Position numbers and translations under genes: made by a program. Positions 9,245 to 62,289 of a stretch of 64,000 bases of DNA are shown here, one piece after another. How positions within the stretch are numbered: position 1 is the first letter of the stretch; the number at the start of each line of letters is the position of its first letter. Source of the stretch: Cymodocea nodosa (Eukaryota; Streptophyta; Magnoliopsida; Alismatales; Cymodoceaceae); the NCBI GenBank assembly GCA_036874045.1, contig CM072343.1, forward strand, positions 18,000,001-18,064,000, read 5' to 3'. Below the pieces are notes generated by a model. The model saw only the letters and a program-made list of their open reading frames with translations. It did no database searches and had not been told where the DNA came from.

Positions 9245-10254
9245 ATGGCGTCGACGAGGAATCTGATGGCGGCGGTACTGCTGAACTCGGTGGCTATCAC
9301 CACGATGTTCATGCTCGTGACCGGGAAGCTGATGGTTTGCTTGCCAAAGTTGAAGCCCTGCGCCAACCACGAGAACCCGAAGAGCATGGCCTTGTGCTGT
9401 GGCTCCCTCAATGAGCTGATAGCGGACAACGATCCTTGCCTGTGCCAGGTTTTCTCCCATCTCGACATAACAAATGAGCAAGCCATCCAGTTCGCCACCT
9501 ACTGCGGAATCGACACCAGCGCCGGTATCTGTGGCTCTGCTGCCGGTGAGAACACGGACCTGGCAATGTGATCATCGATCGTCACACCTTGACATTATAA
9601 TTAGCTCTTGTTAATCGATTTCTTTCTGAAAAATATCATCGATCAGCTCCTACAAACGGCGACTTCGGTGGTTCTCCCCCGGCTACAAAACCTTCGGCTA
9701 CACCACCCGAAGGTGAATAATTAATATAACACTGCCGCTTCATATTCCAATACTTGCGTTTCTTTTGGTTGAACAGGTATCGCTCCGGTCGTCGATAAAT
9801 CTTTATATTAATTACTAACTGGTTTGAATTAGAATGTTTTCCCGATAGATAGATTTGCACGTGGTCTATATCAGATTCATCCAACAGTCCATTGATTTCT
9901 CCAGCAAACACGGCGGCGGCCCCGGCGACTCCTCCGGTGGAAACTGCTTCAAGACCTTCGGCAGTCGCTGCTCCACCAAGAGGGTGGAAATCAATTGCGG
10001 ATGAGCCGACCCCAGCATACACAGCGCCGCCAACTCCGGCTCCTACAGTGCTTGCTCCTCTGGCAGGTGGTTGGCATCCAACTGCGGATGAGCTGACCCC
10101 GCCACCTCCTGCTCCTTCAACAGGTTTTTCCTTTCCAGATGCAGGTAACTTCATCTTTGCATGAATTCTTCCAAGTTATAATTTTTTTTTATCTCAATTC
10201 ACGTTTGCAATCTTTCCATTAACAATCGTTCCATTTCCAGCTCACCTGGGCTGA
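9245..10254 (+). CDS. LTP-like 8-Cys protein with Pro/Ala-rich tail (locus A)
   Basis: Secreted non-specific lipid-transfer-like protein. Proposed exons are 9245-9545, 9647-9712, 9905-10144 and 10241-10254 (206 aa); all internal junctions are phase 1. Exon 1 holds a hydrophobic leader, then eight cysteines at 32, 39, 51, 52, 65, 67, 87 and 96 in the order C-C-CC-CxC-C-C. The donor after exon 1 (GTGAGA) is near consensus. Exons 2 and 3 encode a Pro/Ala/Thr-rich linker with AP, TP and SP dipeptides typical of arabinogalactan-type glycosylation. The start is the ATG at 9245, as the longer frame begins at TTG. The last exon is odd: it ends after four residues with no GPI tail in frame (see findings), so the 3' end is the least certain part. 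It is more divergent from the other loci than they are from each other. Confidence 0.7.
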
Positions 10255-14720: not shown

Positions 14721-14994
14721 CCTTTGCCCCCCGATCACTCTCTCACCGACGACGACGACGCAAGGCTTAAATGGCGACCGCGCAAGTCAGGCCAGCAAGA
14801 CTTGCAATACTTAGCATCTCATCGTGGAGGCGCAACGTCCAATCCCACCATTGATCGGCAGGCATCAGACCTTCGACTGAGGCGGGACAGCGGCGGATGA
14901 GCTTCGTGGGCAATTTCACTTCCGACCAAAAATTGGAGAGGATCGGATCGGATCGGATCTCATTTCACCGGAGGGCCCTTGGTTTTTTGTTTTG

Positions 14995-15775
14995 TTTTGG
15001 GGAATATGAGTCGAAGCAATAACAAGACTATTTCTAGTGGAACATCTTTCACAATCGCTGGAGAGATAATTCACTAATAGACCGAGGGATAGAGAATTCA
15101 ACTCATTCACATACAGATCATGAATGTTTGGAATCCATATTATGCAATGAGACATTGCTTTTGCGAATTCGAATTGAAGGGTGATATCAAATTGGTCTAT
15201 TTTCGGCGTCATATACATAGTTAGCTCATTTGTCATAGTTAGCAGTTCTGTATCAAGGTCATCATCAATATCATCACTATCATCAATATAGATATCATTA
15301 CTATTACTAATATGGATATCGTCATTATCATCAATATCGATATCATCAATAGAACCTTTGGGCTTGTCATCCAGGAACTTGTTTGAAAATACTGTAATGA
15401 AAGGAACATAGGAGTTTGTCGCTAGGTATTTGACCAAATATGATCGTCCAGTTCCTATCGAACCTATCACTAAAATACCCTTAGAAGGGGATAGGGCTAA
15501 GCGGAGCGAAAAGGGTTTTCCATGAGATGGGAAATAAAAACTATTAGTCCCGCACGAGGTTTGTGAATAAGTGATTGTCTGATAATAAGTAAGGAATATC
15601 CGTCTTTCTGCTAAACAAGATCTATTGAACTCATAATTCATTAGATACTTTTTATGAATGTCAACTAAGTATCGTAAGTAAATTGATCCTGGTTGTTCAA
15701 TCATTTGATAACCAGAGTCATTCTTTGATAAATGATCACTATGAGTCAGATTCAATAGAATTTTATCAATTCTTT
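14995..15775 (-). pseudogene. ycf2: Nuclear plastid insertion: ycf2 fragment
   Basis: An internal part of plastid ycf2, the large AAA-ATPase-like protein of the chloroplast genome. On the minus strand it reads from [17 protein letters not shown] through the nucleotide-binding motif region [19 protein letters not shown] to [10 protein letters not shown], then stops matching. The frame is open throughout, about 260 codons out of a protein that normally exceeds 2000. An Asp/Ile/Asn-rich stretch in the middle (around 15250-15350) is longer than I expect for ycf2. It lacks any plant nuclear promoter or transit peptide, so it is a transferred fragment. Its right edge coincides with the point where the duplicated LTPG upstream block begins. 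Confidence 0.9.
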
Positions 15776-15785
15776 TTTATGTCGT

Positions 15786-16440
15786 TAGGGAACTCTTCGG
15801 TGACGAAATAATATTCGAAAACAAAATCATATTTCGCTTAATTAATCATCAAATGTTTATTTTGAAAACAAAAGCTTCTGGAAAGGAATGCGATCCGGAC
15901 GTAGTGCTCTACCACCCATTACGTGCTCCTGACGAATACAATATAATAATAATAATTATTAGATTATAAAATTATAACGCGGCACAGTACTACATATTTA
16001 TTTATTTATGCATGCTTTAAAAGATTTAGATATTCCTCCTGCTATTTTCATGTAAAAAGCACAACGTAATTGTTATGAAATACGTACAATTAACGAAGCA
16101 ACTAAGTAAACCAGTACTCTTAAATCAGACAATAAGAAGATCACTCTATTATGGAATTATCGTTGTTAGATTTTGAACGGCGAGGTCACGAGGGAGTGCC
16201 GCTGTTTACCATGGTGTACGTTGTGAGGTTACGTTTGATTTTTGATATATTATTTATATAAATAATAAATTAATTTTTAAAACTTTACTTATTCAGCATT
16301 ATTTAGAAAATTCTATTATATTACTCGATACCACAATTTATTCACGTCAGACTCACCCACTTGATTAGATTGACATGTATAAGCGGTGGTGATCTATGAA
16401 GTTCTTAATTAAGAAGCATATATATATATATATATAAAGT
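15786..16440 (+). repeat. Duplicated LTPG upstream block (copy at locus B)
   Basis: The block contains GAACTCTTCGGTGACGAAAT, a segment about GTAGTGCTCTACCACCCATT and an AT-rich approach to locus B. The same block lies upstream of F in opposite orientation (about 41200-40430). Parts also occur near 33700-33880 and 22540-22690. It marks a segmental duplication of promoter plus gene. Confidence 0.7.
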
Positions 16441-16560
16441 AGTACGAAAATGATGAGTGATATGTACACAATAGTAGATTGCTGTGCCGATGGAACGAAC
16501 GTGAAGAGAGGAAACATACCACCTCGTCTTGCCCATGAGAATGGTCTCATGGACAAGTAT

Positions 16561-16597
16561 GTGGTGGTGGTGGTGGTGGTATATATATATATATATG
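16561..16597. repeat. (GTG)n(TA)n microsatellite in LTPG B promoter
   Basis: A GTG tract is followed by a TA tract about 70 bp before the ATG of locus B. The inverted copy at F (40231-40280) has longer versions of both, so the tracts have changed length since duplication. Confidence 0.85.
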
Positions 16598-16667
16598 TAA
16601 ACGCGTACTGCCTCCTCTTGTCCTGTAAAATAGAGCGAGAGGGAGATCGAAGAAGAAGGAGAAAAGA

Positions 16668-17403
16668 ATGGCGGCAAGCAAAGTAAGTGTGGTACTGATG
16701 ATGATTACGCTGGCGGTGGCATCATCGGCGACGGCGAGCGCTAGGCCGTCCCAAGCCTGCCAACAGCAATTGGGTGATAGTTGCAGGGACATCCAAAGCC
16801 CAGAGGGAGTGCAGACTTGTTGCGCGGCTCTGGAGAACCTTCACAACACCGACACTCCTTGCCTGTGCCAGATTTTTGCCAGCGTAGGCCCAGAAACTAC
16901 CGTATCGTTAATGAACGAATGTAAACCCGCCGGCGGCTTCAGCCTCAACTGTGGCAACGATGGTCGGATATATCCTACGCTCATTTAATTTGATATTTTC
17001 CAAATCTTTTAGTCTACTTCCCAATTAAACCTGAACGATTTTTGTTTTGATTATGGGTGTACGTGTTTGCAGCTCAGAGCCATGGTGCTTCCGGTCACGT
17101 TGCAGCTCCTTCGGGTAAAACCAGTTTTATGCTTAATTTTCAGAAACTTTGAGTTGATCTTTCATTAATTCGAACAAGTTCTTCAGGATTCAGAAGTTTT
17201 CCACGCAACACCTTTTAAGCTTCAAAACATAAAAAACCAATGCATCAAAAGCTCACTTTTTGAAATTTTTGACTTTTCAAACTTATTTATATGACTGCCA
17301 ATTTTTGACTTTTAAAGCCACCGGAAGAAGCAATGGCGCGCAAAGGAATCACTTCCACTCCATGGGGTTGGCTTCGTTGATGGGAACCGTCCTCCTCTTC
17401 TGA
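16668..17403 (+). CDS. GPI-anchored lipid-transfer protein (LTPG, locus B)
   Basis: Predicted cell-surface lipid-transfer protein. Exons are 16668-16962, 17073-17114 and 17318-17403 (140 aa); junctions are phase 1. Residues 1-25 form a signal peptide ending ASA. Eight cysteines lie at 31, 39, 51, 52, 65, 67, 85 and 95. Exon 2 adds a short hydrophilic linker. Exon 3 ends in MGLASLMGTVLLF, a hydrophobic tail after a small-residue, polar stretch, the usual shape of a GPI-attachment signal. The first donor (G|GTCGGA) is weak, and reading through it gives a stop after 8 codons with no GPI tail, so a shorter secreted form is possible. Exon 1 is almost identical to locus F while exon 3 matches locus D. 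A Copia remnant begins about 165 bp downstream. Confidence 0.85.
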
Positions 17404-17567: not shown

Positions 17568-20545
17568 TCGCATTCTCAAAAATAGAAAATGAAAATTGTC
17601 GAGATTGTAAACGGGTTTTCAAACTAGGTATGAATGTCATATATTATAAATAAGTTTTCAAGTTAAAAAGGAGAAGTCGATGAATCTGTGATTAGATACG
17701 AAGCTCGTCTTATTGCAAAAGAATTTTTTGCAACAGCTTAGAGTTAGATATGTTTGAAACTTTTAGTCTTATATTAAAACATACAATTACAAGAACTATT
17801 TTGTTTATAGCAATAAATAAAAAGTAGAAGTTAAGACAATTCGACATGGAATGTACCTTTTTTCATGAGAAACTGAAAGAAGTTGTTTATATGCGTCAAC
17901 CTCTGGGATATATGGATAATATGCATCCAGATCATGTGTGCCAAACAGTAAAAGTAACCTATGGGCTTAGTCAAGCTCTTCATACCTGATATGAAAAATT
18001 TGCATCTGTATTACATGATATTGGTTTCATTACATTTATGTCTAATACATCCTTGTTCATTTATCATGAAGAAAATGTTTCCATCTACGTTTTAATGTAT
18101 GTTGATGATATAATAATCAATGGAAGTGATTCAAAAGGTATTCAACATGTTATTGATGTTCTCAACAAGGAGTTTAGACTAAAAGATCTAGGTAATTTGT
18201 CATATTTTCTGGGCATCTCTGTTTCTTATAACAGTAAATATCTAGCTTTAAATCAATCTTAGTATATTAGACAAGTTTTGTATAAAAATGAAATTGAGCA
18301 CTGCAAGCCTGTGAAATCTCCTGCTTGTGTCAATAAGCAATCTAAGGAAAAAGGTATACCACTTAACGATGGTACTGAATATAGACAACTTGCTGGAGTA
18401 CTTCAATATATTACGTTGTCTCGACTTGACATTTCATTTACTATATATAAGGTGTGCCAATTTATGCATTGTCCAACAGATGTGCATTTAGCTGCTGTCA
18501 AAAAGATACTATGTTATCTCAAGGGAATTAGTAATGATTCCTTAATCTTTACACCTAGTTCACTTGACTATGCAGGTTCATCTACTAATGGAATATCGTT
18601 TGAAGGTTTCTGCATATTTATGGGTAGCAATCTAATATCTTGGCGTGCTAAAAAGCAAGCAACAATTCCAAAATCATTTACAGAAGCAAAATATAGAAGT
18701 CTTGCCACAACAACAACTGAGTTGTATTGGCTATCTTCATTGTTTAAAGAATTAAATATAACAATCTATGTGGTATCATCGATTTACTATGATAGTTCAT
18801 CACCAATAACTCTAACCTCTAATCCTGTAGTTAATACAAGGTCAAAACATACGGAGGTGGGCTTTCGCTTTTGTTCACAAAAAAAAGGAAGGAAAAAGAG
18901 AGAGAATATATATATATATATATGTAACGAAAGAAAAAGAAGAAGAAATGATGATGAAAAGAAAAAGAAAAGAACATCAGAGACCCAAAAAAAAAAAAAA
19001 AAAAAAAAAAGAGAATGAGGGAAACAAGGCGGGCACACGACTGCTATGTTGGTTGTGCATGATTGTAAGGTGGTTGACGTTCGCTGCCTCTTTATAAAAT
19101 TGGCTAAACGTCGATTGGTTAAAAAAGAAAGAAAGAAAAGAAGGGTGAAGAGCGAAAGAAAGAAGGAGCTTAAAGAGAGTAGAAATAAAAAGAAGAAAAA
19201 GAAGTGAACGAAAATAGAGGAGATCATCAATGTTGCACCTGCCAAGGTAGGTTCTTGAAAGTTTCATTTTATTTTTCTTCTTTTTTGTTACAGGTTCTCA
19301 ACGTACAAGAAAAAGAGAGAGAAATCTAAGTTTAAAAAATTAATTAAGTTAACCTTATGGTTGCAGTATTAGTAAAATACAAATATCTAAGTTTCAAATT
19401 AAGTAAACATTGTTACTTCATTATAGGATATAATCACTTAAACTTAAAATCAAAACTTCGAACTTAAAGAAAAGATAAATTTTTAGGTTGAGAATCAAAC
19501 AAACCTAAACTTTAAAATATAAAACATAAACACATTTAAAGAAAAAAAAAGTAAAACCAAACACTCCTAGATATGAACCTAAACTATCTAGGTTCTTTAT
19601 TTAAAATGTCAAAAAGAGTCATCAGTATAAAGTAAAACTAAATACTACTAGATATAAACCTAAATTATTTAGGTTTTTCGTTTAAAGTGTAAGAAATATT
19701 TGCTAAATTGAATTAAATTGTTGAATGTTTTTAAATATGAGCCTAAACTATTAGCCAATCATTTTGACATCAACAAAGTTGTCTTATGAATTATGATTGA
19801 GAGCTCAAATAGATTCTCTATATTCTTTATCTTAATTTATTCTTATATGAATTATATTCTAAATTATGTATTTTTTCAGTCATTAATGAAATACACTTTT
19901 AAAATGGATATTTCTTTGTACATTTGATCATATCTACTATGACATAACATAAATGATGTATCATTCTCAAAAGAAAGCATAAGATGCAGAGTTGATCGTC
20001 AACTCTTGAGAGATCTCTCGAATAACGAATGAAATCTAATACAAAATCAACATTCATGATGTTCAGCAAAAAACACATGTAAACAACTTTGTAAAAGAAA
20101 AAATAGAGAAGGGCCAATTACAGGTGGACTATATAACCTTTGAAGAATAGATTGCAGATGTGTTCATTAAAGGGCTTCAACCTTGACGATTATAACATCT
20201 AAAGTCCATGCTCCACATTATAGACAAGTCTCGTGTTGCAGTTGCTGGAGGGTGTTGAAATATTTGTTGAGCATTTAGTCCTAGCCTAATTCAGGCACAC
20301 AAACTGTGCGCAATTTTATTTAAGTTTTCTATACATTAAGATAATATGATATTGTTATCTTGGATTAACCACCACAAACTATTTTTATACTGTTAATATT
20401 GTTAGGGGTGGTGATTAAGATTTTCATACTATTTTTCATACCTTTCTTTATTTGGAGTCTTTGATCATCTCCTCCACTCTCGCAAGATCTTCGTTGATAA
20501 TTGCGTGCGCTAGGTTTTTTCCATTTGTTATCATAGATTGATTGT
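17568..20545 (+). mobile_element. Copia retrotransposon remnant in the 3' flank of locus B
   Basis: Decayed Ty1/Copia element. At 17845-18870 frames with stops read as reverse transcriptase (YVDD at about 18100; KDLGNLSYFLG) and RNase H. About 1.2 kb of unrelated A/T-rich sequence follows, then the RNase H end near 20125-20180 and a polypurine-like GCTGGAGGG before TGTTGAAATATTTG at 20254, a probable 3' LTR start. No 5' LTR or gag precedes the RT. The block splits sequence that is continuous downstream of locus D, and GATTGTG stands at both edges (17561-17567, 20540-20546). Confidence 0.75.
18880..20105. other. Unrelated insert within Copia RNase H
   Basis: The RNase H frame stops at about 18870 and resumes at about 20110. 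The intervening sequence has a TA repeat, a long poly(A) run (about 18990-19010), purine-rich runs and no recognisable protein. It is probably a nested insertion, type unknown. Repeated phrases such as AAACTAAATACTACTAGATA occur at 19550-19670. Confidence 0.5.
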
Positions 20546-29649: not shown

Positions 29650-30300
29650 TGATAATGGAATATAATATTTTCTGTATGTTTGGCAATCAATATCCTTGCA
29701 ACGCCCTTGTAGGATCGATCCATTAAGACTGACTTCATGGATTTAATTTGCAAATAAATATGAAGAGTCCATCAGTTCTTTACATTTCCAGTTACCTGTA
29801 ATTCTTGATTACTTGTTTCACTCCCTTCAAGAAGCCTTAAGATTCCTACAAGTACTTACACTGTATATCTAGAACCACATCATGATGGCATTAGAGCCTA
29901 CTCCTTTGCTACTACCACTTGTATATATCGATCTCTAAAGTGGCCAGATAGAGCATATATGTTAATTACCTATCTATGGTTTATTATTGTCTGCGCTCCC
30001 TTTCTCATGATAATAATGTTTCACTTATTGTTAATAATACATTATTAATAATGAGAACTGATAAATTTATCACATGCAAGTCACTTCCAATTTATGTGGA
30101 CCTTTAAGTTTTGCTGCCACGCTTGGGTAAATAGTGATACGCAAACGAACAGCATTATTTCATTTCAACATCAAATCTCAATCAAGTGCAATGAACTCAG
30201 TAAACATGTGCCATATATGGAAAGCCAAAATGAACAACCAAGGACGAAGGCGCATTTCCACAATTCCACCAAGGGTAATTCTCATTTCCTTCTTGAAATT
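29650..30300 (-). repeat. LTPG 3'-flank block, copy 2 (locus E side)
   Basis: Paralogous to the region from the F terminal exon outward (about 35040-36100). At about 30230-30270, where F has its GPI-tail exon, this copy jumps straight into intron-type sequence (CCACCAAGGGTAATTCTCAT). The terminal exon has therefore been deleted. Confidence 0.65.
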
Positions 30301-31495
30301 TAAATTGTAATTGTCTGCAATAAAATTCTAAATGGATTGTATTGATTATTATAACGAAAAAATTGAATGACTTTGTTAGTAGAAGATTCCATTATTTATC
30401 TTGTTTTTGAACCTAGCAAGTGTCATAAAATACAAACATACACGCATAAACTGATCAATGAAGCGTGAATTGTTAATTTGGATAAAGCTTTCGGTTAAAC
30501 TTTCAAGTCAACGTTCCATCTCATGAAGATGTAGAGATTGTATGACTTTCTGATGATGGAAATTATAATATAAAATTGTCATGGTTAATCATGGAAAGGG
30601 AAAAGCAATGCAAGATAAGCAGTATAATTGTCAGCTACTGAATTTATAAGTTTTATAAAACAATTTATGCATACTTTCATTTCCACTGTATTATTTTCTC
30701 ATTTTTCTAACAATTAGATAAAAAACATTATATTCATCTTGAAAAGAACGTACAACAGCATTTACTGATTTTTGAAATTAGTTTTATGTTATTTATTAAG
30801 GAAATTTACAAAAAAAATTCGTGATACATTTACAAACTAGAATGAAATGGAAAGTGAAATATAAGAAAAAGTTATTGAATTAGTAAAAATGTACTCTAAT
30901 ACCAATAAAATTGTACATCTATCACAATTAATTTCAAGGCATTGTCTTATATATACTCAAGGAGAAGGAGAATTACGTGAATCGGCTTCGTGCACACCAA
31001 ACTTTTTTCTTGTAGAAAACATGGATAATCCTCAGAAGCAAGGAATCTATAGCTATTGGTAGTTTTTCAATAAATAAATATCAAGAATAAAAACTAATAC
31101 GATATTTCATCTATGAAGATATTAGTACATTAAAAGATTGATAAAATTAATCATTAGAAACAGTTTTATATTCTTTTAAACGGGCAAAGAAACTAATAGA
31201 AGATGTATGAAGCTAGCCCTAGTTAACTTATACATATACATATACATTATACACACACTTGCAGCTATACATACTGCATGCTGACCAGTACTTTTAATTT
31301 TTTTGACTTTCGATATATATACTAGCAGTTGTATAAATAAGTGAGTTTGAAAAGTCAAAAGTTTCAAAAATGAGCATTTGATGCGTTGTTTTTTTACGTT
31401 CTCAAACTTGAAATTTTGCAGAAAGCTTTTGAATCCTGAAATAAGGGAAGATCAACTTTAAATATCTCTGCAAATCAAGCATAAACGAATCGGTT
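30300..31495. other. Decayed intron sequence of locus E
   Basis: Contains diverged fragments of the F intron repeat unit (for example around 30300-30430 and 30600-30660) and a stub matching the proline-rich exon region of G near 31170-31210. No intact exon was found. Confidence 0.45.
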
Positions 31496-31499
31496 TTAC

Positions 31500-31930
31500 A
31501 CGGCGAATGCGTCGTCCACCGACCAGTAGCACTGGGGATCTGCAAACACATCCAAGATTAATAAAAAAGCTGCTCGGTCAAGGTTTACGAGACAAAAAGA
31601 TTTGGAAAAGATCAATTAATCGAGCATGCATAAGAACCGATCGTCGAATTCGCAGCTGGAGAGATGGTTGTCGGTGACGTTGAACCACGGGTAACGCTCA
31701 GGAACCCTATGAGGTATGCCTGTTCATGTACACCCGAGGCGGTGGTGTTAAGAAGTTGGCACACGCAAGAAGCGTCGGGCGAAATTTACTCCAGGGCCAT
31801 GCAACAAGTTCGCATTCCCTCTTCGCTGTCGTCGTCATTGCAACGATTACCCAATTTCTCGACGCAGGCTTGCCCTTGCTTGCTCGCCGTTGCCATAGAT
31901 GCCACCGCCGTCTGTAAGCTCTTAGCGGCA
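31500..31930 (-). pseudogene. LTPG pseudogene (locus E)
   Basis: Exon-1 remnant reads QACVEKLGNRCNDDDSEEG, then the CC pair, then a stop (TAA, 31788-31786). In the same frame it continues SPDASCVCQLLN and onward. An exon-2 remnant follows at about 31540-31505, after the GTGTTTGCAG acceptor shared with B, F and G. The signal-peptide region is missing, replaced at about 31930 by unrelated GC-rich sequence. Closest to G by sequence. The premature stop, lost start and lost terminal exon make it non-functional. Confidence 0.8.
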
Positions 31931-36101: not shown

Positions 36102-39100
36102 TCATGCAACAAGGAGCCACCACATGAATGTGAAGCCTGTCAAGCCATACACTTTGATGAAGGCGTTCCTTTGTTCACTTCCACTTTCTCCTAATCCTGA
36201 AGTGGAAGACAGCAATATTTTGTCAGACCAACTATAAATAACAAGGGATTCTTCTAAATTAAAGAAAAACATCAGTACTGTTTTGTAATTTTCTATATAC
36301 TTCAGATAATATTGTAATTTTCCTCTACATCCTTCCACCCTACATATATCAAACAAATTTTCAACATTCGTATATATTACATTGAATTTCTCATCATTTG
36401 TGATCATCTTAAAAATTATCCAAGTCTTTTACATGCAATAAAATAATTAAAAATAGCATGTTACCAAAAGACATTTTACATTGCAATTGAGTGAGAGAGA
36501 ATTCTGAATGGATTTTATTGATTATTACACTAAGAAAATTGAATTACATAGGAATTAGAAAATTCCTTTATTTATCTTGTTTTTGAACCAAGCAAGTATC
36601 ACAAAATATATGTGCTGGCATAGATATAGATCTTTATTACTGATCAAAGAAGCAGGAATTGTTAATTTGGATAAAGCTTTTGATTGATATCTCTAGTTGA
36701 CTTACCACCTGGTGGTGAAGATGGAGGATAACTTTCTGATCCTGGAGCTTCAAAGCCATTGGTTGATTCTTCGGAAGGTGGAGATGGGGAAACTAAAATG
36801 TTGATGAAAATGGAAAAGCAATCAAGAATGCATGATAAGTACGCAGTATAATGACTAGCTACCGAACTTATAAGTTTGTAAATAAATAGGTATCATGCAT
36901 CTCATCCATAAAAGAACAATTCCGTCAAGGTAATTCTCATTTCCTTCTCCAAATCTACATTGCAATTGAGTGCGTGAAAATTCTAAATGGATTTTGTTGA
37001 CTATTATATATAATCAAGAAATTGAATGACGAAGGAATTAGAAAATTCCACTGGTTATCTTCTTTTTGAACCTAGCAAGTATTGTAAAATATATACACAT
37101 GCACATACGAAGATCTTTATTACTGATCAACAAAGAAGCAGGACTTGTTACTTTGGTTAAAATCTCTAGTCGACATACCATATGGTGGTGGTGAAGATGG
37201 AGGCGTTGGATTACCTTCAGATGGTGAAGCTCCAGAGTTATCTGCTGGAGATTGTGATGGAGGTGCTTCGGAAGGTGGAGATGGGGAATCTAAAATGTTG
37301 AGGAAAAAGGAAAAGCAATCAAGAACGCATGATAAGTACGTAGTATAAGGATTAGCAACCGAATTTATATGTTTGTAAATAAATAGGTATCATGCATCTC
37401 ATCCATAAAAGAACAATTCCGTCAAGGTAATTCTCATTTCCTTCTCCAAATCTACATTGCAATTGAGTGCGTGAAAATTCTAAATGGATTTTGTTGACTA
37501 TTATATATAATCAAGAAATTGAATGACGAAGGAATTAGAAAATTCCACTGGTTATCTTCTTTTTGAACCTAGCAAGTATTGTAAAATATATACACATGCA
37601 CATACGAAGATCTTTATTACTGATCAACGAAGAAGCAGGACTTGTTACTTTGGTTAAAATCTCTAGTCGACATACCATATGGTGGTGGTGAAGATGGAGG
37701 CGTTGGATTACCTTCAGATGGTGAAGCTCCAGAGTTATCTGCTGGAGATTGTGATGGAGGTGCTACGGAAGGTGTAGATGGGGAATCTAAAATGTTGATG
37801 AAAAAGGAAAAGCAATCAAGAACGCATGATAAGTACGTAGTATAAGGATTAGCAACCGAATTTATATGTTTGTAAATAAATAGGTATCATGCATCTCATC
37901 CATAAAAGAACAATTCCGTCAAGGTAATTCTCATTTCCTTCTCCAAATCTACATTGCAATTGAGTGCGTGAAAATTCTAAATGGATTTTGTTGACTATTA
38001 TATATAATCAAGAAATTGAATGACGAAGGAATTAGAAAATTCCACTGGTTATCTTCTTTTTGAACCTAGCAAGTATTGTAAAATATATACACATGCACAT
38101 ACGAAGATCTTTATTACTGATCAACGAAGAAGCAGGACTTGTTACTTTGGTTAAAATCTCTAGTCGACATACCATATGGTGGTGGTGAAGATGGAGGCGT
38201 TGGATTACCTTCAGATGGTGAAGCTCCAGAGTTATCTGCTGGAGATTGTGATGGAGGTGCTACGGAAGGTGGAGATGGGGAATCTAAAATGTTGATGAAA
38301 AAGGAAAAGCAATCAAGAACGCATGATAAGTACGTAGTATAAGGATTAGCAACCGAATTTATATGTTTGTAAATAAATAGGTATCATGCATCTCATCCAT
38401 AAAAGAACAATTCCGTCAAGGTAATTCTCATTTCCTTCTCCAAATCTACATTGCAATTGAGTGCGTGAAAATTCTAAATGGATTTTGTTGACTATTATAT
38501 ATAATCAAGAAATTGAATGACGAAGGAATTAGAAAATTCCACTGGTTATCTTCTTTTTGAACCTAGCAAGTATTGTAAAATATATACACATGCACATACG
38601 AAGATCTTTATTACTGATCAACAAAGAAGCAGGACTTGTTACTTTGGTTAAAATCTCTAGTCGACATACCATATGGTGGTGGTGAAGATGGAGGCGTTGG
38701 ATTACCTTCAGATGGTGAAGCTCCAGAGTTATCTGCTGGAGATTGTGATGGAGGTGCTACGGAAGGTGGAGATGGGGAATCTAAAATGTTGATGAAAAAG
38801 GAAAAGCAATCAAGAACGCATGATAAGTACGTAGTATAAGGATTAGCAACCGAATTTATAAGTTTGTAAATAAATAGGTATCATGCATTTCACACTTTAA
38901 AAAACAATTCCACCGTGGGTAATTCTCATTTCTTTCTTGAAATCTACATTGCAATTGGTTGCGAGAAAATTCAAAGTGGAGTTTCTTGATTATTATAAAT
39001 AATAAGGAAATTGAATGAAAAAGGAATTAGAGAATTCCATTATGCATCTTGTTTTTGAACCTAGCAAGAATCATAAAATTTATACACATGCATATATGAA

Positions 39101-40161
39101 GATCTTTATTACTAATCAAAGAAGCAGGACTTGTTAATTTGGATGAAGCTTTTGATTAAAATCTCTTATGAATTTGGACTCGTTAATTTGGAAGATGTCA
39201 CAGCTGGTGAAGGAGCCGTTGGAGGGATCGACGGTGGTGAAGTTTCTGCATGATGGGAGAGGAGGCAGTAAAAAATATATGAAAATATTTTCTTGTGTAC
39301 GTATGGTTGATGCGCGCCAACATATATAACCAAAGCAATGTGTTTAAGTTCATGGTTATCGACGCATGTGTTAAGAACATGTTAATCTAACCAAAACACA
39401 GCTGAAAATCTTGAAAAAAGCCTTTTATTAGCAGTTACATATAGAAATCATAAACAGACATAACATTAGATTACATTACAGTCATGCCGATCAGAATTTC
39501 TAAGGTTTTTGACTTTTGATACATTAATCGGCAGTCATATAAATAAGTTTGAAAAGTCAAAAATTTCAAAAAGTGAGCTTTTGATGCATTGGTTTTTTAT
39601 GTTTTGAAGCTTAAAAGGTGTTGCGTGGAAAACTTCTGAATCCTGAAGAACTTGTTCGAATTAATGAAAGATCAACTCAAAGTTTCTGAAAATTAAGCAT
39701 AAAACTGGTTTTACCCGAAGGAGCTGCAACGTGACCGGAAGCACCATGGCTCTGAGCTGCAAACACGTACACCCATAATCAAAACAAAAATCGTTCAGGT
39801 TTAATTGGGAAGTAGACTAAAAGATTTGGAAAATATCAAATTAAATGAGCGTAGGATATATCCGACCATCGTTGCCACAGTTGAGGCTGAAGCCGCCGGC
39901 GGGTTTACATTCGTTCATTAACGATACGGTAGTTTCTGGGCCTACGCTGGCAAAAATCTGGCACAGGCAAGGAGTGTCGGTGTTGTAAAGGTTCTCCAGA
40001 GCCGCGCAACAAGTCTGCACTCCCTCTGGGCTTTGGATGTCCATGCAACTATCGCCCAATTTCTGTTGGCAGGCTTGGGACGGCCCAGCGCTCGCCGTCG
40101 CCGATGATGCCACCGCCAGCGTAATCATCATCAGTACCACACTTACTTTGCTTGCCGCCAT
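36102..40161 (-). CDS. LTPG with tandemly amplified Pro-rich exons (locus F)
   Basis: Predicted GPI-anchored lipid-transfer/xylogen-like protein of 320 aa. Exons are 40161-39867, 39756-39715, 38780-38670, 38283-38173, 37786-37676, 37289-37179, 36792-36706 and 36196-36102. Every junction is phase 1 with GT/AG borders, and the frame runs to TGA at 36102. Residues 1-25 are a signal peptide. Cysteines are at 31, 39, 51, 52, 65, 67, 85 and 95. About residues 113-289 are five Pro/Ser-rich modules: four of 37 aa (start DSPSPPSE or similar, end TPPSSPPPY) and one of 29 aa. The last exon ends YGLTGFTFMWWLLVA, a probable GPI signal. SP, AP and SPPP motifs suggest heavy O-glycosylation. Exon 1 is nearly identical to B. 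The model is inferred from splice signals and phase; usage of each module is unproven. Confidence 0.78.
36886..38873. repeat. Four-copy 497-bp tandem repeat (exon plus intron)
   Basis: Unit starts recur at about 36886, 37383, 37880 and 38377 with exact 497-bp period and only a few differences. Each unit holds one complete 111-nt exon with acceptor (CATTTTAG) and donor (GTATGTCG). Diverged half-units flank the array on both sides (about 36420-36885 and 38874-39165). Confidence 0.95.
39166..39245 (-). CDS. Alternative terminal exon within locus F
   Basis: After the acceptor CATGCAG, in phase with exon 2, it reads ETSPPSIPPTAPSPAVTSSK, then six more residues to a TAA. It is the homologue of the last exon of locus G. 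I find no good phase-1 donor inside it, so its use would end the protein without the Pro-rich modules or GPI tail. It occupies the place of a module exon, next to a diverged repeat unit. It may be skipped in most transcripts. Confidence 0.5.
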
Positions 40162-40230
40162 TCTTTTCTCCTTCTTCTTCGATCTCCCTCTCGCTCTGTT
40201 TTACAGGACAAGAGGAGGCAGTACGCGTTT

Positions 40231-40280
40231 ACATATATATATATATATATACCACCACCACCACCACCACCACCACCACA
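40231..40280. repeat. (TA)n(CCA)n microsatellite in LTPG F promoter
   Basis: A TA tract then a CCA tract, the inverted and longer counterpart of the tract before locus B. It lies about 70-120 bp before the ATG. Confidence 0.85.
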
Positions 40281-40429
40281 TTCTTGTCGATGAGAATGGT
40301 CTCCATCCCGTGTTTCTTCCCTTCACGTTCGTTCCACCAGCCCAATGATAACAATAACCTACCATTGTGTACATATCACTCCCATACTACTTTATGTATA
40401 TATATTATACATGCTTCTTAATTAAGAAC

Positions 40430-41490
40430 TTCGCAGATTACTACAGCATGTACATGTCAGTCTAATCTAGTCGGTGAGTTTAATAAGATTAAATAGTGTC
40501 GTTGACAAAGGGAACAGTGGCGCTACTATGTGATCTCGTCGTTAAAAATTTCAACAACGATAAGTCCATGATAGGGTGACTTGTTGTTACCTGATTTAAG
40601 AGTATTAGTTTGCTTAATTGCTTCAATATATGTATTTTATGATAATTATATTATACTTTTTCTGAAATGTCATCTTAAAATCAATTGACAATAGGGAAAG
40701 AAAATTATCATATATAAATTTAGATTTAGTTCTCATATTAATCGATATGAAATTATTGGTATACTTTTCCTTACCTGTGGTTTATGTTTTATGTCTACAA
40801 GTATTCATTCAGATCGATGTATGTGAATCTAATTTAATATTATGTAAACTTTTATTTTAAAATTAATTAACAATTAGTAGAGAAAATTATCATATGCAAG
40901 TCCAAGTTCAATTCCCATGTTAATTAATATATAACTATTCTCACACTTCATGAAAATAACAAGTGCAATATCCAAATCTTTTAAGACATAAATAAATAAA
41001 TAAATATGTAGTACTGTGCCGCGTTATAGCTTTACAATCTAATAATATTTATTACCGCACTGTCTTCGTGGGGAGCACGTAATGAGTGGTAGAGCACTAC
41101 GTCCAGATCTCATTCCTTTCCAGAAGCTTTTGTTTTCAAAATAAACCTTTGACCATTGATCAAGCAAAATATGATTTTCTTTCGAATAAGTGCAAGCAGG
41201 GAATTTTTTAATTAATTTAATATTAAAAATAAAATGTATTTTATATAATTACTCAATCCTTCTAAATTATTTATTCGTTCCAAAATATTATTGATGCGAT
41301 TCACTTCTTTTTAGTAAAACCAATCAATCCTAATAATGACTTTGATCTCTTTTGTAAATCCTCTAAACGGGCATCTGCCCAAGGTTGATTACAGATGTTG
41401 CTGTGGGTAATAGAGATAGCAGCCAAACTACACCTAGAAGCAAGATGAAGTGTACAAAGGGAGTCACCGAAAGTTACGACACATGTTGAT
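40430..41490 (-). repeat. Duplicated LTPG upstream block (locus F copy)
   Basis: About 41030-41200 matches the B block (GAGTGGTAGAGCACTACGTC and the CAGAAGCTTTTGTTTTCAAA stretch), and about 41380-41490 matches 34530-34650. It ends where TIR element 3 is inserted. Confidence 0.7.
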
Positions 41491-42895: not shown

Positions 42896-43264
42896 TTCTG
42901 CTACTTCAATTAGTTAACCGAGGTTGATTAAACATATTTTTTAATGTATATGCATCATGCTTGCATCATGTGAATGAGGCATGGAAGTTACGTCTAAACT
43001 TCAGCAAGGATGGGTATAGAAATTAAACATGGATGTGTAATGAACGTGCGTATATTAACGTACGTTTGCAGAAAATGTAAGTGTTTTAATTCATATTACA
43101 TTATTGTTGTTATGTAGAATGAGTGGAAGATGTGTGTGTTATGTATGGTCGTATGTCTATGTCGTGGTGTTAGTAGGCAGTTATTTTAGATAGTTATTGT
43201 ATGGGTGTTCGAAGGTTGTAAGAGGTAGTGTAAAAAGAAGAAGAAAAGAGTAGTCTGTTGACAT

Positions 43265-43336
43265 ACCATCTGTTGGTGAAGACGGACGGAGGCATTGGAT
43301 TACTTTCTGATGCTGGAGCTTCAGAGTCATCTGTCG
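43265..43336 (-). pseudogene. Relic of a Pro-rich LTPG linker exon
   Basis: The minus strand shows the acceptor CGACAG and a shortened module (DSEAPASESNP, then MPPS). The donor GTATGT is also present. A four-base insertion near the CCTCCGTCCG segment shifts the phase, so it can no longer be spliced in frame like the F modules. Confidence 0.6.
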
Positions 43337-43756
43337 AATTGAAGGTTGGAAAAGCAATCAACAATGCATGTTAAGCGATACATGCATGTACAAATTAGAT
43401 TGAAATAGAAAGTGAAATATTGTAGGTACAGGGAATCAAATTGGTAAAAATTTATATGTCACACCTCTTATAATTACGTCGTGGATCCTATAAAGTATCA
43501 TAATTTCAAAGTACTGGCTTTTGCTCATGAGAAATTATATCAGTCACCTTATTAACCTCTCTCTTGTTGACAAAGTAGATAATACTCGGGTGGAATCTAT
43601 ACCTACCAGTTGTGTTTCAAGAAATAAATATCAAGGATAAAAACTAATATGGCATTTCATCTATGAAGGTATATATCAGTACATTCATATATATGGTTAA
43701 AAGATTGATAAAATCATTAGAAACAATTTTATGTTTTTTTAAAAAGATTGATAAAA

Positions 43757-44709
43757 TTAAACAGGCAAAAGAGGAAAAATTAAAGAAGATGTAACAGCTG
43801 GTGAAGGGCCTGTTGGAGGGACTGGCGGTGGTGAAGCTTCTGCATGCATGGTGCGAGAGAAGCCAGTAAAAAAATCTGAAAATATTCTATTGTGTACGTA
43901 TAGCTGATGCCAACATATATAAATATATAACCAAAGGAATCTATTTAATCTTATGGTTACTGGAGGACACGATGAGAACATGTTATTCTAATTACCAACC
44001 AAAACACAGCTGAAACTCTTGAAAAGAGCGTTTTATAATTAGCCGTCATAGAAATCATAAACAGAGATACAACATTAGATTACAATATTACAATCATGCT
44101 GATCAGAACTTTCAAGGTTTTTGACTTTTGATATGTTAATTGGCAGTCATATTAATCATAGTTTGAAAAGACAAAATTTTCAAAATGTTGCAGATATCCG
44201 GCGCAGAAAAATTTTTAATCATCAAAAACTTGTTAGAAATAAAGAAAGATTAACTTCAAGAGTTTCTGAGAACCGTAAACGAATGGCTTTTACCCGAAGG
44301 ACGTCTCTTCCTTTCATACACGGTATTAACTGCAAACACATCCATGGCCAAGGTTAATGAGAAAAATTTCGCAACACTCGAGACTGAAAGATTTGAAAAA
44401 ATCAATTTATGAGCATAAGATACAACCAATGCCGCCACGTGAGAGTTCCATATCGACGTCGGGACGACAGCTTCTCATGATCACAGGGAATTTATCTACT
44501 CTTTGCTCGGCGCCGTCAATAATGTCGCACAGGCAAACATCTCTGTAGTCTATAAATTCCATCAGAGCCGTGCAACAGGTCCGCGTTCCCTCTGGGCTGT
44601 TGTCATTGCAACGATTGCCCGGTTTCTCCTCGCAGGTTTTCTTCGCCGTCACCGATGATGCCACTGCCATCGTCACCATCAATACCACCCATACTTTGCT
44701 TGCCTCCAT
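43757..44709 (-). CDS. LTPG-like protein with short Pro-rich tail (locus G)
   Basis: Secreted lipid-transfer-like protein. Proposed exons are 44709-44427, 44329-44294 and 43839-43757 (133 aa), all phase 1. A signal peptide (about 1-22) precedes cysteines 26, 34, 45, 46, 59, 61 and 81. Exon 3 reads EASPPPVPPTGPSPAV and ends SSLIFPLLPV, a short hydrophobic end that is a weak GPI candidate. The eighth cysteine is odd: it lies just after the exon-1 donor, so splicing removes it, while reading through gives GGIGCILCS and a stop. The ATG at 44709 aligns with B and F; the upstream in-frame codons are an Arg/Ser-rich CTT-repeat artefact. The gene may be functional, but splicing and disulphide pattern are uncertain. 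Confidence 0.65.
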
Positions 44710-61330: not shown

Positions 61331-61575
61331 TGGTCGAGGTTGATAATAATATCTAATTAGCTATTTTTTCTTTTAAACTTTTGTATTTTGATTATTGTGT
61401 TGTGTGAACCGAGACGAATATTTTTTTTGTCAATATATATTACCTACCTTTTATTAAAAAAAACGTAGTCTCAAATTAGATTGGGGCACGTACAAACCAA
61501 TCGACGTACTAATGTAGGTAGTAGTGTAGTACAACTTCATGCCATTCTCAAAACCCTAGGAATCTCTTCACAGTG

Positions 61576-61583
61576 TATAAATA
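61576..61583 (+). promoter_or_regulatory. TATA box of the hybrid proline-rich gene
   Basis: TATAAATA, 71 bp before the ATG at 61654, leaving room for a start site about 30 bp downstream and a short leader. Confidence 0.65.
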
Positions 61584-61653
61584 TCTGCTCTACGGCATCA
61601 GTGGATCACATAAGACTGCTATCCTTGCACACATATCCTGCTCGGCGACGACG

Positions 61654-62289
61654 ATGGCGTCGTCCACCACCGTTAATATGATGGTTGCCACCATGTTCAT
61701 GGGCGCCCTGCTCCTGTTATTTTCACTTTACAACACCTACGGCAACTTGGAGCTGATGAAGTTCTTCCCGAGGCGGTCACTGCAAGTGGCGCAGCCTTCA
61801 TCCATGGCTCCAGCGCCAGCTCCCTCTGTGGCTTCCAATGCTTCGACCTCGTCTCACCCTCCGGCGCAAGCTCCCTCTGGGGCTTCCAATGCTTTTCCCC
61901 GACCTCGCTCTTCGACCTCGTCGCACCCTCCGGCGCATCCTCCCGCAGTGCACGTCGTGGCTTCCAACTCCTCCCACAACGCCACCCACCAGCATACCAG
62001 CCACAACGCCACCCACAACGTCAGCAGCTGTCCCGTCGACAGCCTCAACGTCGGCCTTTGCTTCGACGTGGTCGCCGGTCTGCTCAACGTCACTCTTGGG
62101 TTACCTCCGAATTACCCCTGCTGCTCCATATTCTTCGGCTTTCTCGACGCCGAGATCGCCTTCTGCTTCTGCACGACCTTGCCCGCCCGCGCCTTCGGCA
62201 TAGACGTCAACCTCCCCATCCGTCTAAGCGTCCTCCTCAACCGCTGCGGCAAGAATCCTCCTCCTGGTTTCGTGTGCTCTAGTAATTGA
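61654..62289 (+). CDS. Hybrid proline-rich protein with 8-Cys domain (locus H)
   Basis: Wall- or surface-directed protein of the hybrid proline-rich class (DC2.15/EARLI1-like), 211 aa, one exon. Residues 10-30 form a hydrophobic leader. Residues 45-124 are a Pro/Ala/Ser-rich, His- and Asn-containing region with an internal duplication (APS-ASN-STSSHPPA) and N-glycosylation sites (NAT, NVS). The 8-Cys domain follows with cysteines at 126, 136, 156, 157, 171, 173, 198 and 208. CPVDSLNVGLC, the CC pair and NRCGKNPPPGFVC match the family well. The CxC motif is CFC where CLC is usual. The start is the ATG at 61654, next to a TATA box at good distance and directly before the leader. It shares the 8-Cys fold superfamily with the LTPG cluster but is a separate branch. 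Confidence 0.92.
   Translation: MASSTTVNMMVATMFMGALLLLFSLYNTYGNLELMKFFPRRSLQVAQPSSMAPAPAPSVASNASTSSHPPAQAPSGASNAFPRPRSSTSSHPPAHPPAVHVVASNSSHNATHQHTSHNATHNVSSCPVDSLNVGLCFDVVAGLLNVTLGLPPNYPCCSIFFGFLDAEIAFCFCTTLPARAFGIDVNLPIRLSVLLNRCGKNPPPGFVCSSN

Follow-up and report, generated by a model that had tools for sequence, protein, structure and literature searches.

A recent tandem array of Ser/Pro-rich exons, probably used as linker modules, in a predicted LTPG-type gene of Cymodocea nodosa

A gene resembling those of the type G non-specific lipid-transfer proteins (nsLTPs; LTPG) is predicted on the minus strand of the Cymodocea nodosa contig CM072343.1. It lies within the 64,000-nucleotide stretch C15:18000001-18064000 (hereafter the window, from whose first letter all positions are counted) of an assembly that comprises 28 contigs and 374.6 Mb. 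Its spliced frame is open for 320 amino acids, from the ATG at 40161 to the TGA at 36102, and all of its introns are in phase 1. Five of the eight exons of the model are copies or relatives of one linker exon, and the last encodes a tail of the glycosylphosphatidylinositol (GPI) signal type. The features of the gene, in the direction of transcription, are the following.

39867 to 40161, minus strand: exon 1, coding for a putative signal peptide and for the eight-cysteine (LTP) domain, with the weak donor ATG/GTCGGA; assigned from the open frame and Pfam
39715 to 39756, minus strand: exon 2, a short phase 1-1 linker exon of 42 nt, assigned from splice-site ranks
39202 to 39245, minus strand: relict exon (the exon of U0), with a strong acceptor and no usable donor, Pro-rich in phase 1
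38890 to 39165, minus strand: U0, an older copy of the unit intron, diverged from the recent units by about 19%
38284 to 38780, minus strand: unit 1 (497 bp), 111-nt exon 38780-38670 and intron
37787 to 38283, minus strand: unit 2 (497 bp), 111-nt exon 38283-38173 and intron
37290 to 37786, minus strand: unit 3 (497 bp), 111-nt exon 37786-37676 and intron
36793 to 37289, minus strand: unit 4 (497 bp), 111-nt exon 37289-37179 and intron
36706 to 36792, minus strand: 87-nt exon (U5), phase 1-1, an older relative of the 111-nt exon, with the best donor of the gene
36197 to 36705, minus strand: last intron, of which the first 265 bp or so are, by alignment, a diverged copy of the unit intron
36102 to 36196, minus strand: last exon, with a GPI-signal-like hydrophobic tail, the TGA stop and the best acceptor of the gene

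Tandem Repeats Finder (TRF) reported a tandem repeat at 36772-39142, with a period of 497, 4.8 copies and 96% matches, and the start-to-start spacings given by a repeat search were 497, 497, 497 and 497. Four 497-bp units thus follow one another head to tail on this strand, and each has one open, Ser/Pro-rich 111-nt exon in phase 1-1, bounded in every case by AG on the acceptor side and GTATGT on the donor side. The fifth, partial TRF copy corresponds to the older diverged unit U0, upstream of units 1-4. In unit 4 the last 81 bp of the intron are diverged, and eight changes specific to this unit fall at unit positions 417-479. The repeat has the form of a tandem exon duplication, because the unit includes the complete exon together with its two splice sites and adjoining intron, and because the 111- and 87-nt exons are symmetric (phase 1-1), so that copies keep the frame. 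A preliminary description of this DNA, made from its letters, had claimed four 497-bp units, each with a symmetric 111-nt exon, and an 87-nt phase 1-1 relative at 36792-36706; the TRF result, the exact spacing and the open spliced frame bear out the former, and the spliced model the latter. Its figure of about 177 added linker residues was also confirmed (4 x 111 + 87 = 531 nt, or 177 residues), as was its statement that any copy number keeps the frame, since an exon that starts and ends in phase 1 makes copy changes frame-neutral.

Splice sites were ranked with a simple and rather crude score, built on plant splice-site frequencies, among the 181 GT and 190 AG sites of the gene. The five best donors are precisely those of the array exons, with the 87-nt exon first and the four 111-nt exons tied second; the donor of exon 2 ranked 11th. 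The best acceptor is that of the GPI exon, and the acceptor of exon 2 ranked 8th. The GC content of the 111-nt exon is 0.50 vs 0.31 in its intron. When the 87- and 111-nt exons were aligned, they differed by three gaps of 15, 6 and 3 nt, all multiples of three, although an alignment of whole units puts the last of these gaps elsewhere. An exon filter (AG..GT, 60-150 nt, phase-1 open, at least 55% Ser+Pro, good donor, pyrimidine tract), chosen after the exons had been seen, was passed on both strands of the 64 kb solely by the five array exons and by sub-exons of the 111-nt ones, and by nothing in 500 Markov sequences of the length of the gene. Taken together, donor ranks, filter, gap lengths and GC content favour a coding use of the array exons, as far as this can be judged from the nucleotides. 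A separate donor-like site, AAA/GTAAGT, is present on the minus strand at 40146, inside exon 1 and 15 nt past the start of the ATG (10th of 181).

A chance or low-complexity origin of the array was ruled out by the TRF result, the exact spacing and the exon filter with its Markov controls.

Each 111-nt exon also contains an internal phase-1 donor, giving a 75-nt form, and internal acceptors, giving for instance a 63-nt form. The array might therefore act as a generator of splice isoforms, in which exon skipping and the internal sites (the 75-nt form loses the SPPP-Y part) would provide several tether lengths within one plant. This is compatible with a use of the exons as linker modules, but we regard it as rather unlikely. 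The internal donors (AAG/GTAATC) are in phase and tied 6th among the 181 GT sites, the internal acceptor at 38732 ranked 14th of 190, above the outer acceptors, and several sub-exons per unit passed the filter; such sites may, however, come by chance in Ser/Pro-rich sequence, and the 87-nt exon has GAAAGTTATCC at the same place, without this donor.

The recent units are nearly identical. Out of 497 positions, one separates units 1 and 2, two separate units 2 and 3, and three separate units 1 and 3, which indicates that the burst was recent. Within the first 416 positions the four units show only 3 variable sites, of which two belong to the exon. Private differences were located at positions 12 and 485 of unit 3 and at position 22 and the tail of unit 4, and the variant at position 158 is common to pairs of units. 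The mean pairwise difference, calculated by hand over the 416 positions, is about 0.4%, corresponding to an age of roughly 0.3 million years at a substitution rate of 7e-9 per site per year, and to a greater age if the rate is slower. The recent unit-wise growth proposed in the preliminary description is thus supported by the near identity of units 1-3. Older layers are visible as well. Divergence from the recent unit intron amounts to 19% for the copy in U0 and to 26% for that in U5, and the unit introns of U0, U5 and a pseudogene at 31.9 kb differ by 19-26% from the recent ones and from one another. The 110-bp tail of the intron that precedes the 87-nt exon departs from the other four tails at 8-9 of 110 positions. 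Because U0, U5 and the decayed unit of the pseudogene are older, growth happened more than once, and the linker appears to have grown in at least two, probably three, rounds.

An incorrect copy number in the assembly, by collapse or artificial expansion of the tandem repeat, is very unlikely. Units 1-3 are similar enough for such an error, and one assembly was examined, but the copies carry private differences and are exactly spaced, an array of about 2 kb would fit within one long read, and the diverged U0 and U5 make repeated growth real whatever the present number of units.

The predicted product agrees with an LTPG-type protein, as had been proposed at the outset: exon 1 carries all eight cysteines in the arrangement C..C..CC..CXC..C..C, and the spliced protein matched Pfam LTP_2 with 23.8 bits against a cut-off of 22, a modest margin. 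In the aligned members of the cluster seven of the cysteine columns are invariant (5/5) and the eighth is conserved in 4/5. The N terminus is hydrophobic, as judged by eye, and so is the C-terminal tail (mean 1.49 over 16 residues), which resembles the tail of a gene at 26 kb in the window, with 3 of 1000 shuffles being as good. The linker shows the Ser-Pro, Ala-Pro, Thr-Pro and SPPP motifs of arabinogalactan/extensin-type linkers, with raw counts over 192 residues of 33 [S/A/T]P and 4 SPPP.

Several observations weigh against the use of the array exons as linker modules. The relict exon is the main threat to the predicted gene model and the weak donor of exon 1 the second. The acceptor of the relict exon, at 39245, is 2nd of 190 and outranks all the array acceptors, which are middling (111-nt exons 26th and 36th-38th, 87-nt exon 71st). 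The GT of the relict exon is 135th of the 181 GT sites and leaves phase 0; its use leads to early stops, and reading on gives 26 codons followed by a stop (TAA). The donor of exon 1 is only 32nd of the 181 GT sites, and if it is not used a stop follows 8 codons on. The comparison of exon with intron gave no indication that the copies are under purifying selection: both exon differences among units 1-4 alter an amino acid, and between unit 4 and U5 the exon (18/87 different) is hardly more conserved than the intron (64/250). Exon 1 has accumulated four amino-acid changes and one silent change relative to its copy at 16.7 kb, and the introns of these two genes show one difference in 298 aligned bases. 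This divergence pattern fits either a rapidly changing linker or a weakly constrained gene. Finally, the predicted fold has four helices at low confidence (mean predicted local distance difference test score, pLDDT, 61) and matched nothing in the PDB at E<=0.001, with no LTP among the 18 entries listed; a fold model of such low confidence neither helps nor hurts the LTP assignment.

These observations raise the possibility that the gene is decaying. Splicing into the relict exon, or failure at the donor of exon 1, would lead to an early end of the transcript or to its degradation, and the array would be an untranslated repeat that had multiplied without consequence. Two neighbours of the same type, broken or incomplete, point in the same direction. 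On the other hand, open frame, phases and best-ranked donors have been retained in all five array exons, and the GPI exon is open and has the best acceptor of the gene. Exons that lack a donor are as a rule skipped, and since the relict exon has none that is usable it is probably skipped too. A probable origin is suggested by the cluster. In a relative at 44.7 kb the beginning of an exon looks similar (by eye), and the intron after it is a different one; this intron is partly common to the 31.9-kb pseudogene (31000-31180 vs 43554-43743, 74%) and had no match in the LTPG-type gene in the comparison within the cluster. We infer that in the LTPG-type gene a deletion took away the donor and joined the older exon to a copy of the unit intron. 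We consider decay rather unlikely; the array is most likely a recent tandem exon array whose members are used as linker modules in an LTPG-type gene.

Other members of the LTP cluster surround this gene. LTP-type frames lie at 9.2 (plus strand), 16.7 (plus), 23.3 (minus), 26.7 (minus), 31.9 (minus, with a TAA), 40.2 (minus) and 44.7 kb (minus), and three of the neighbours are as follows.

16668 to 17403, plus strand: chimera of exons 1-2 of the focal type (16668-16962 and 17073-17114) and a GPI exon of the 26-kb type (17318-17403)
30260 to 31917, minus strand: broken relative with a TAA in its LTP exon and one decayed unit (30260-30653)
43257 to 44709, minus strand: relative whose exon 1 is open and which has, at about 43267-43330, one exon related to the linker exon, with a 4-nt insertion seen by eye

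The LTP domain of the 16.7-kb gene is 96% identical to that of the focal gene, and its predicted frame is open with almost no linker. Identity between 39527-40498 and 16332-17303 is patchy, with 1 difference in 298 intron positions and 42 in 316 in the upstream region, which suggests gene conversion or differences in selection. The chimera is followed at about 17990-19018 by coding frames that we take to be copia-like. The GPI exon of the focal gene was unmatched both in the 31.9-kb pseudogene and in the 44.7-kb relative. In the 26-kb gene there is a single linker exon, along with a GPI-type tail. Two LTP-type genes, at 26719-25932 (minus) and 9272-10164 (plus), have Pro/Thr-rich linkers with short repeats inside one exon or frame, as seen by eye. 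Elsewhere in the window, a HyPRP-like (hybrid proline-rich protein) gene with a Pro/Ser-rich front and a Hydrophob_seed domain (Pfam, 71.6 bits) was found at 61525-62289 (plus), and a plastid ycf2-like frame at 14916-15776 (minus). No Rfam match at the gathering cut-off and no tRNA were obtained in the window.

In the whole assembly the unit matched only the focal gene and, in decayed form, the 31.9-kb pseudogene; the best candidates were scored, so that such numbers are lower bounds. A transposon or genome-wide repeat as the source of the unit is unsupported, as the matches were limited to these two places. Repeated exon-intron units were also sought by self-comparison of 46 loci. Of these, 42 came from LTP searches, with 1.5 kb of flank each, so that the comparison reached units up to that distance from an LTP domain; some of the 42 are the same gene, and 3 of the 33 Pfam places had no locus. 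The 497-bp array was present only in L008, L020 and L021, all of which are the focal gene. As for other loci, a flank is duplicated in L012, L019 and L047 contain short repeats (about 50 and 100 bp), and L048 and L049 have repeats within long open frames. Positions 1348-2605 of locus L018 (G000:C15:2378792-2381983) hold, in this order, a frame weakly similar to LTP_2 (18.3 bits, under the cut-off of 22), a hydrophobic stretch and a domain of the protein kinase type (Pfam PK_Tyr_Ser-Thr, 61 bits). They may belong to one receptor kinase whose outer domain is LTP-like, or to two adjacent genes.

The reading of the array exons as linker modules would imply the following course of events. The linker would have grown by tandem duplication of an exon together with its intron, every extra copy adding 37 residues with the frame intact. 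The pre-mRNA is predicted to be spliced as exon 1, exon 2, the 111-nt exon four times, the 87-nt exon and the GPI exon, with the donor-less relict exon skipped. The product would be a secreted eight-cysteine domain held off the membrane by about 190 Ser/Pro-rich residues, which are expected to be hydroxylated and glycosylated. The near-identical 497-bp copies would be substrates for unequal crossing-over, so copy number is expected to rise or fall in whole units, and variation in the number of units is plausible on this evidence. Splicing, glycosylation, anchoring, copy-number variation and any function of length are what we infer from the sequence. It is doubtful, although conceivable, that the linker is a length-adjustable tether, in which unit number varies between individuals, splicing adds variation within the plant, and both tune the distance of the domain from the plasma membrane into the wall; the neighbouring chimera would then present the same domain on a tether of near-zero length. 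If the exons are used, the locus offers a natural series on LTPG linker length, together with an almost linkerless neighbour whose domain is 96% identical. The gene would then also exemplify exon multiplication of very recent date in a plant, and because older layers have survived beside the young units, the successive steps by which the repeat grew could be followed.

The focal gene is like the type G nsLTPs (LTPg/LTPG, such as LTPg1 and LTPg5 of Arabidopsis) in its succession of an eight-cysteine domain exon, a linker and a GPI-type tail. According to the available part of PMC7084707, size differences among LTPgs are mainly due to C-terminal extensions, and Arabidopsis LTPgs of groups 1 and 2 mostly have three exons and two introns, with four, five and six exons in LTPg16, LTPg21 and LTPg32. 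Unlike the genes described there, the focal model comprises eight exons, and the linker exon, with its copies and relatives, accounts for five of these. Internal duplication also occurs in LTPg32, where motif 1 is present twice (same part of PMC7084707), and in multidomain LTPs of a moss, one gene of which encodes three eight-cysteine motifs (8CMs; available part of PMC5052319); in those cases, however, the lipid-binding domain is duplicated, whereas in the focal gene it is the linker exon only. No LTPG with a repeated linker exon was found in the top papers of the open-access literature searched, which is weak evidence of absence, and the accessible part of PMC6726743 holds nothing on linker exons.

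HyPRPs and other Pro-rich repeat proteins change fast by duplication and rearrangement (available text of PMC2216038 and PMC3149072), and like the focal protein HyPRPs join Pro-rich repeats to an 8CM or lipid-transfer domain; neither 'intron' nor 'exon' occurs as a word in the main texts of these two papers as accessed. The focal repeats are unlike those of L049, which lie in frame within one open frame, in being separate exons with introns of their own. Tandem in-phase exons that set the length of an extended segment are known from animals, in the unrelated proteins tropoelastin and titin (PEVK), among others. For plants, the accessible portion of PMC6141779 offers a precedent of a repeated exon in the Prunus Ma/RMja TNL resistance genes, with five domains after the leucine-rich repeats (post-LRR) and exon duplications and losses; there the repeated exons encode diverged immune-receptor domains, whereas in the focal gene they encode near-identical pieces of a linker.

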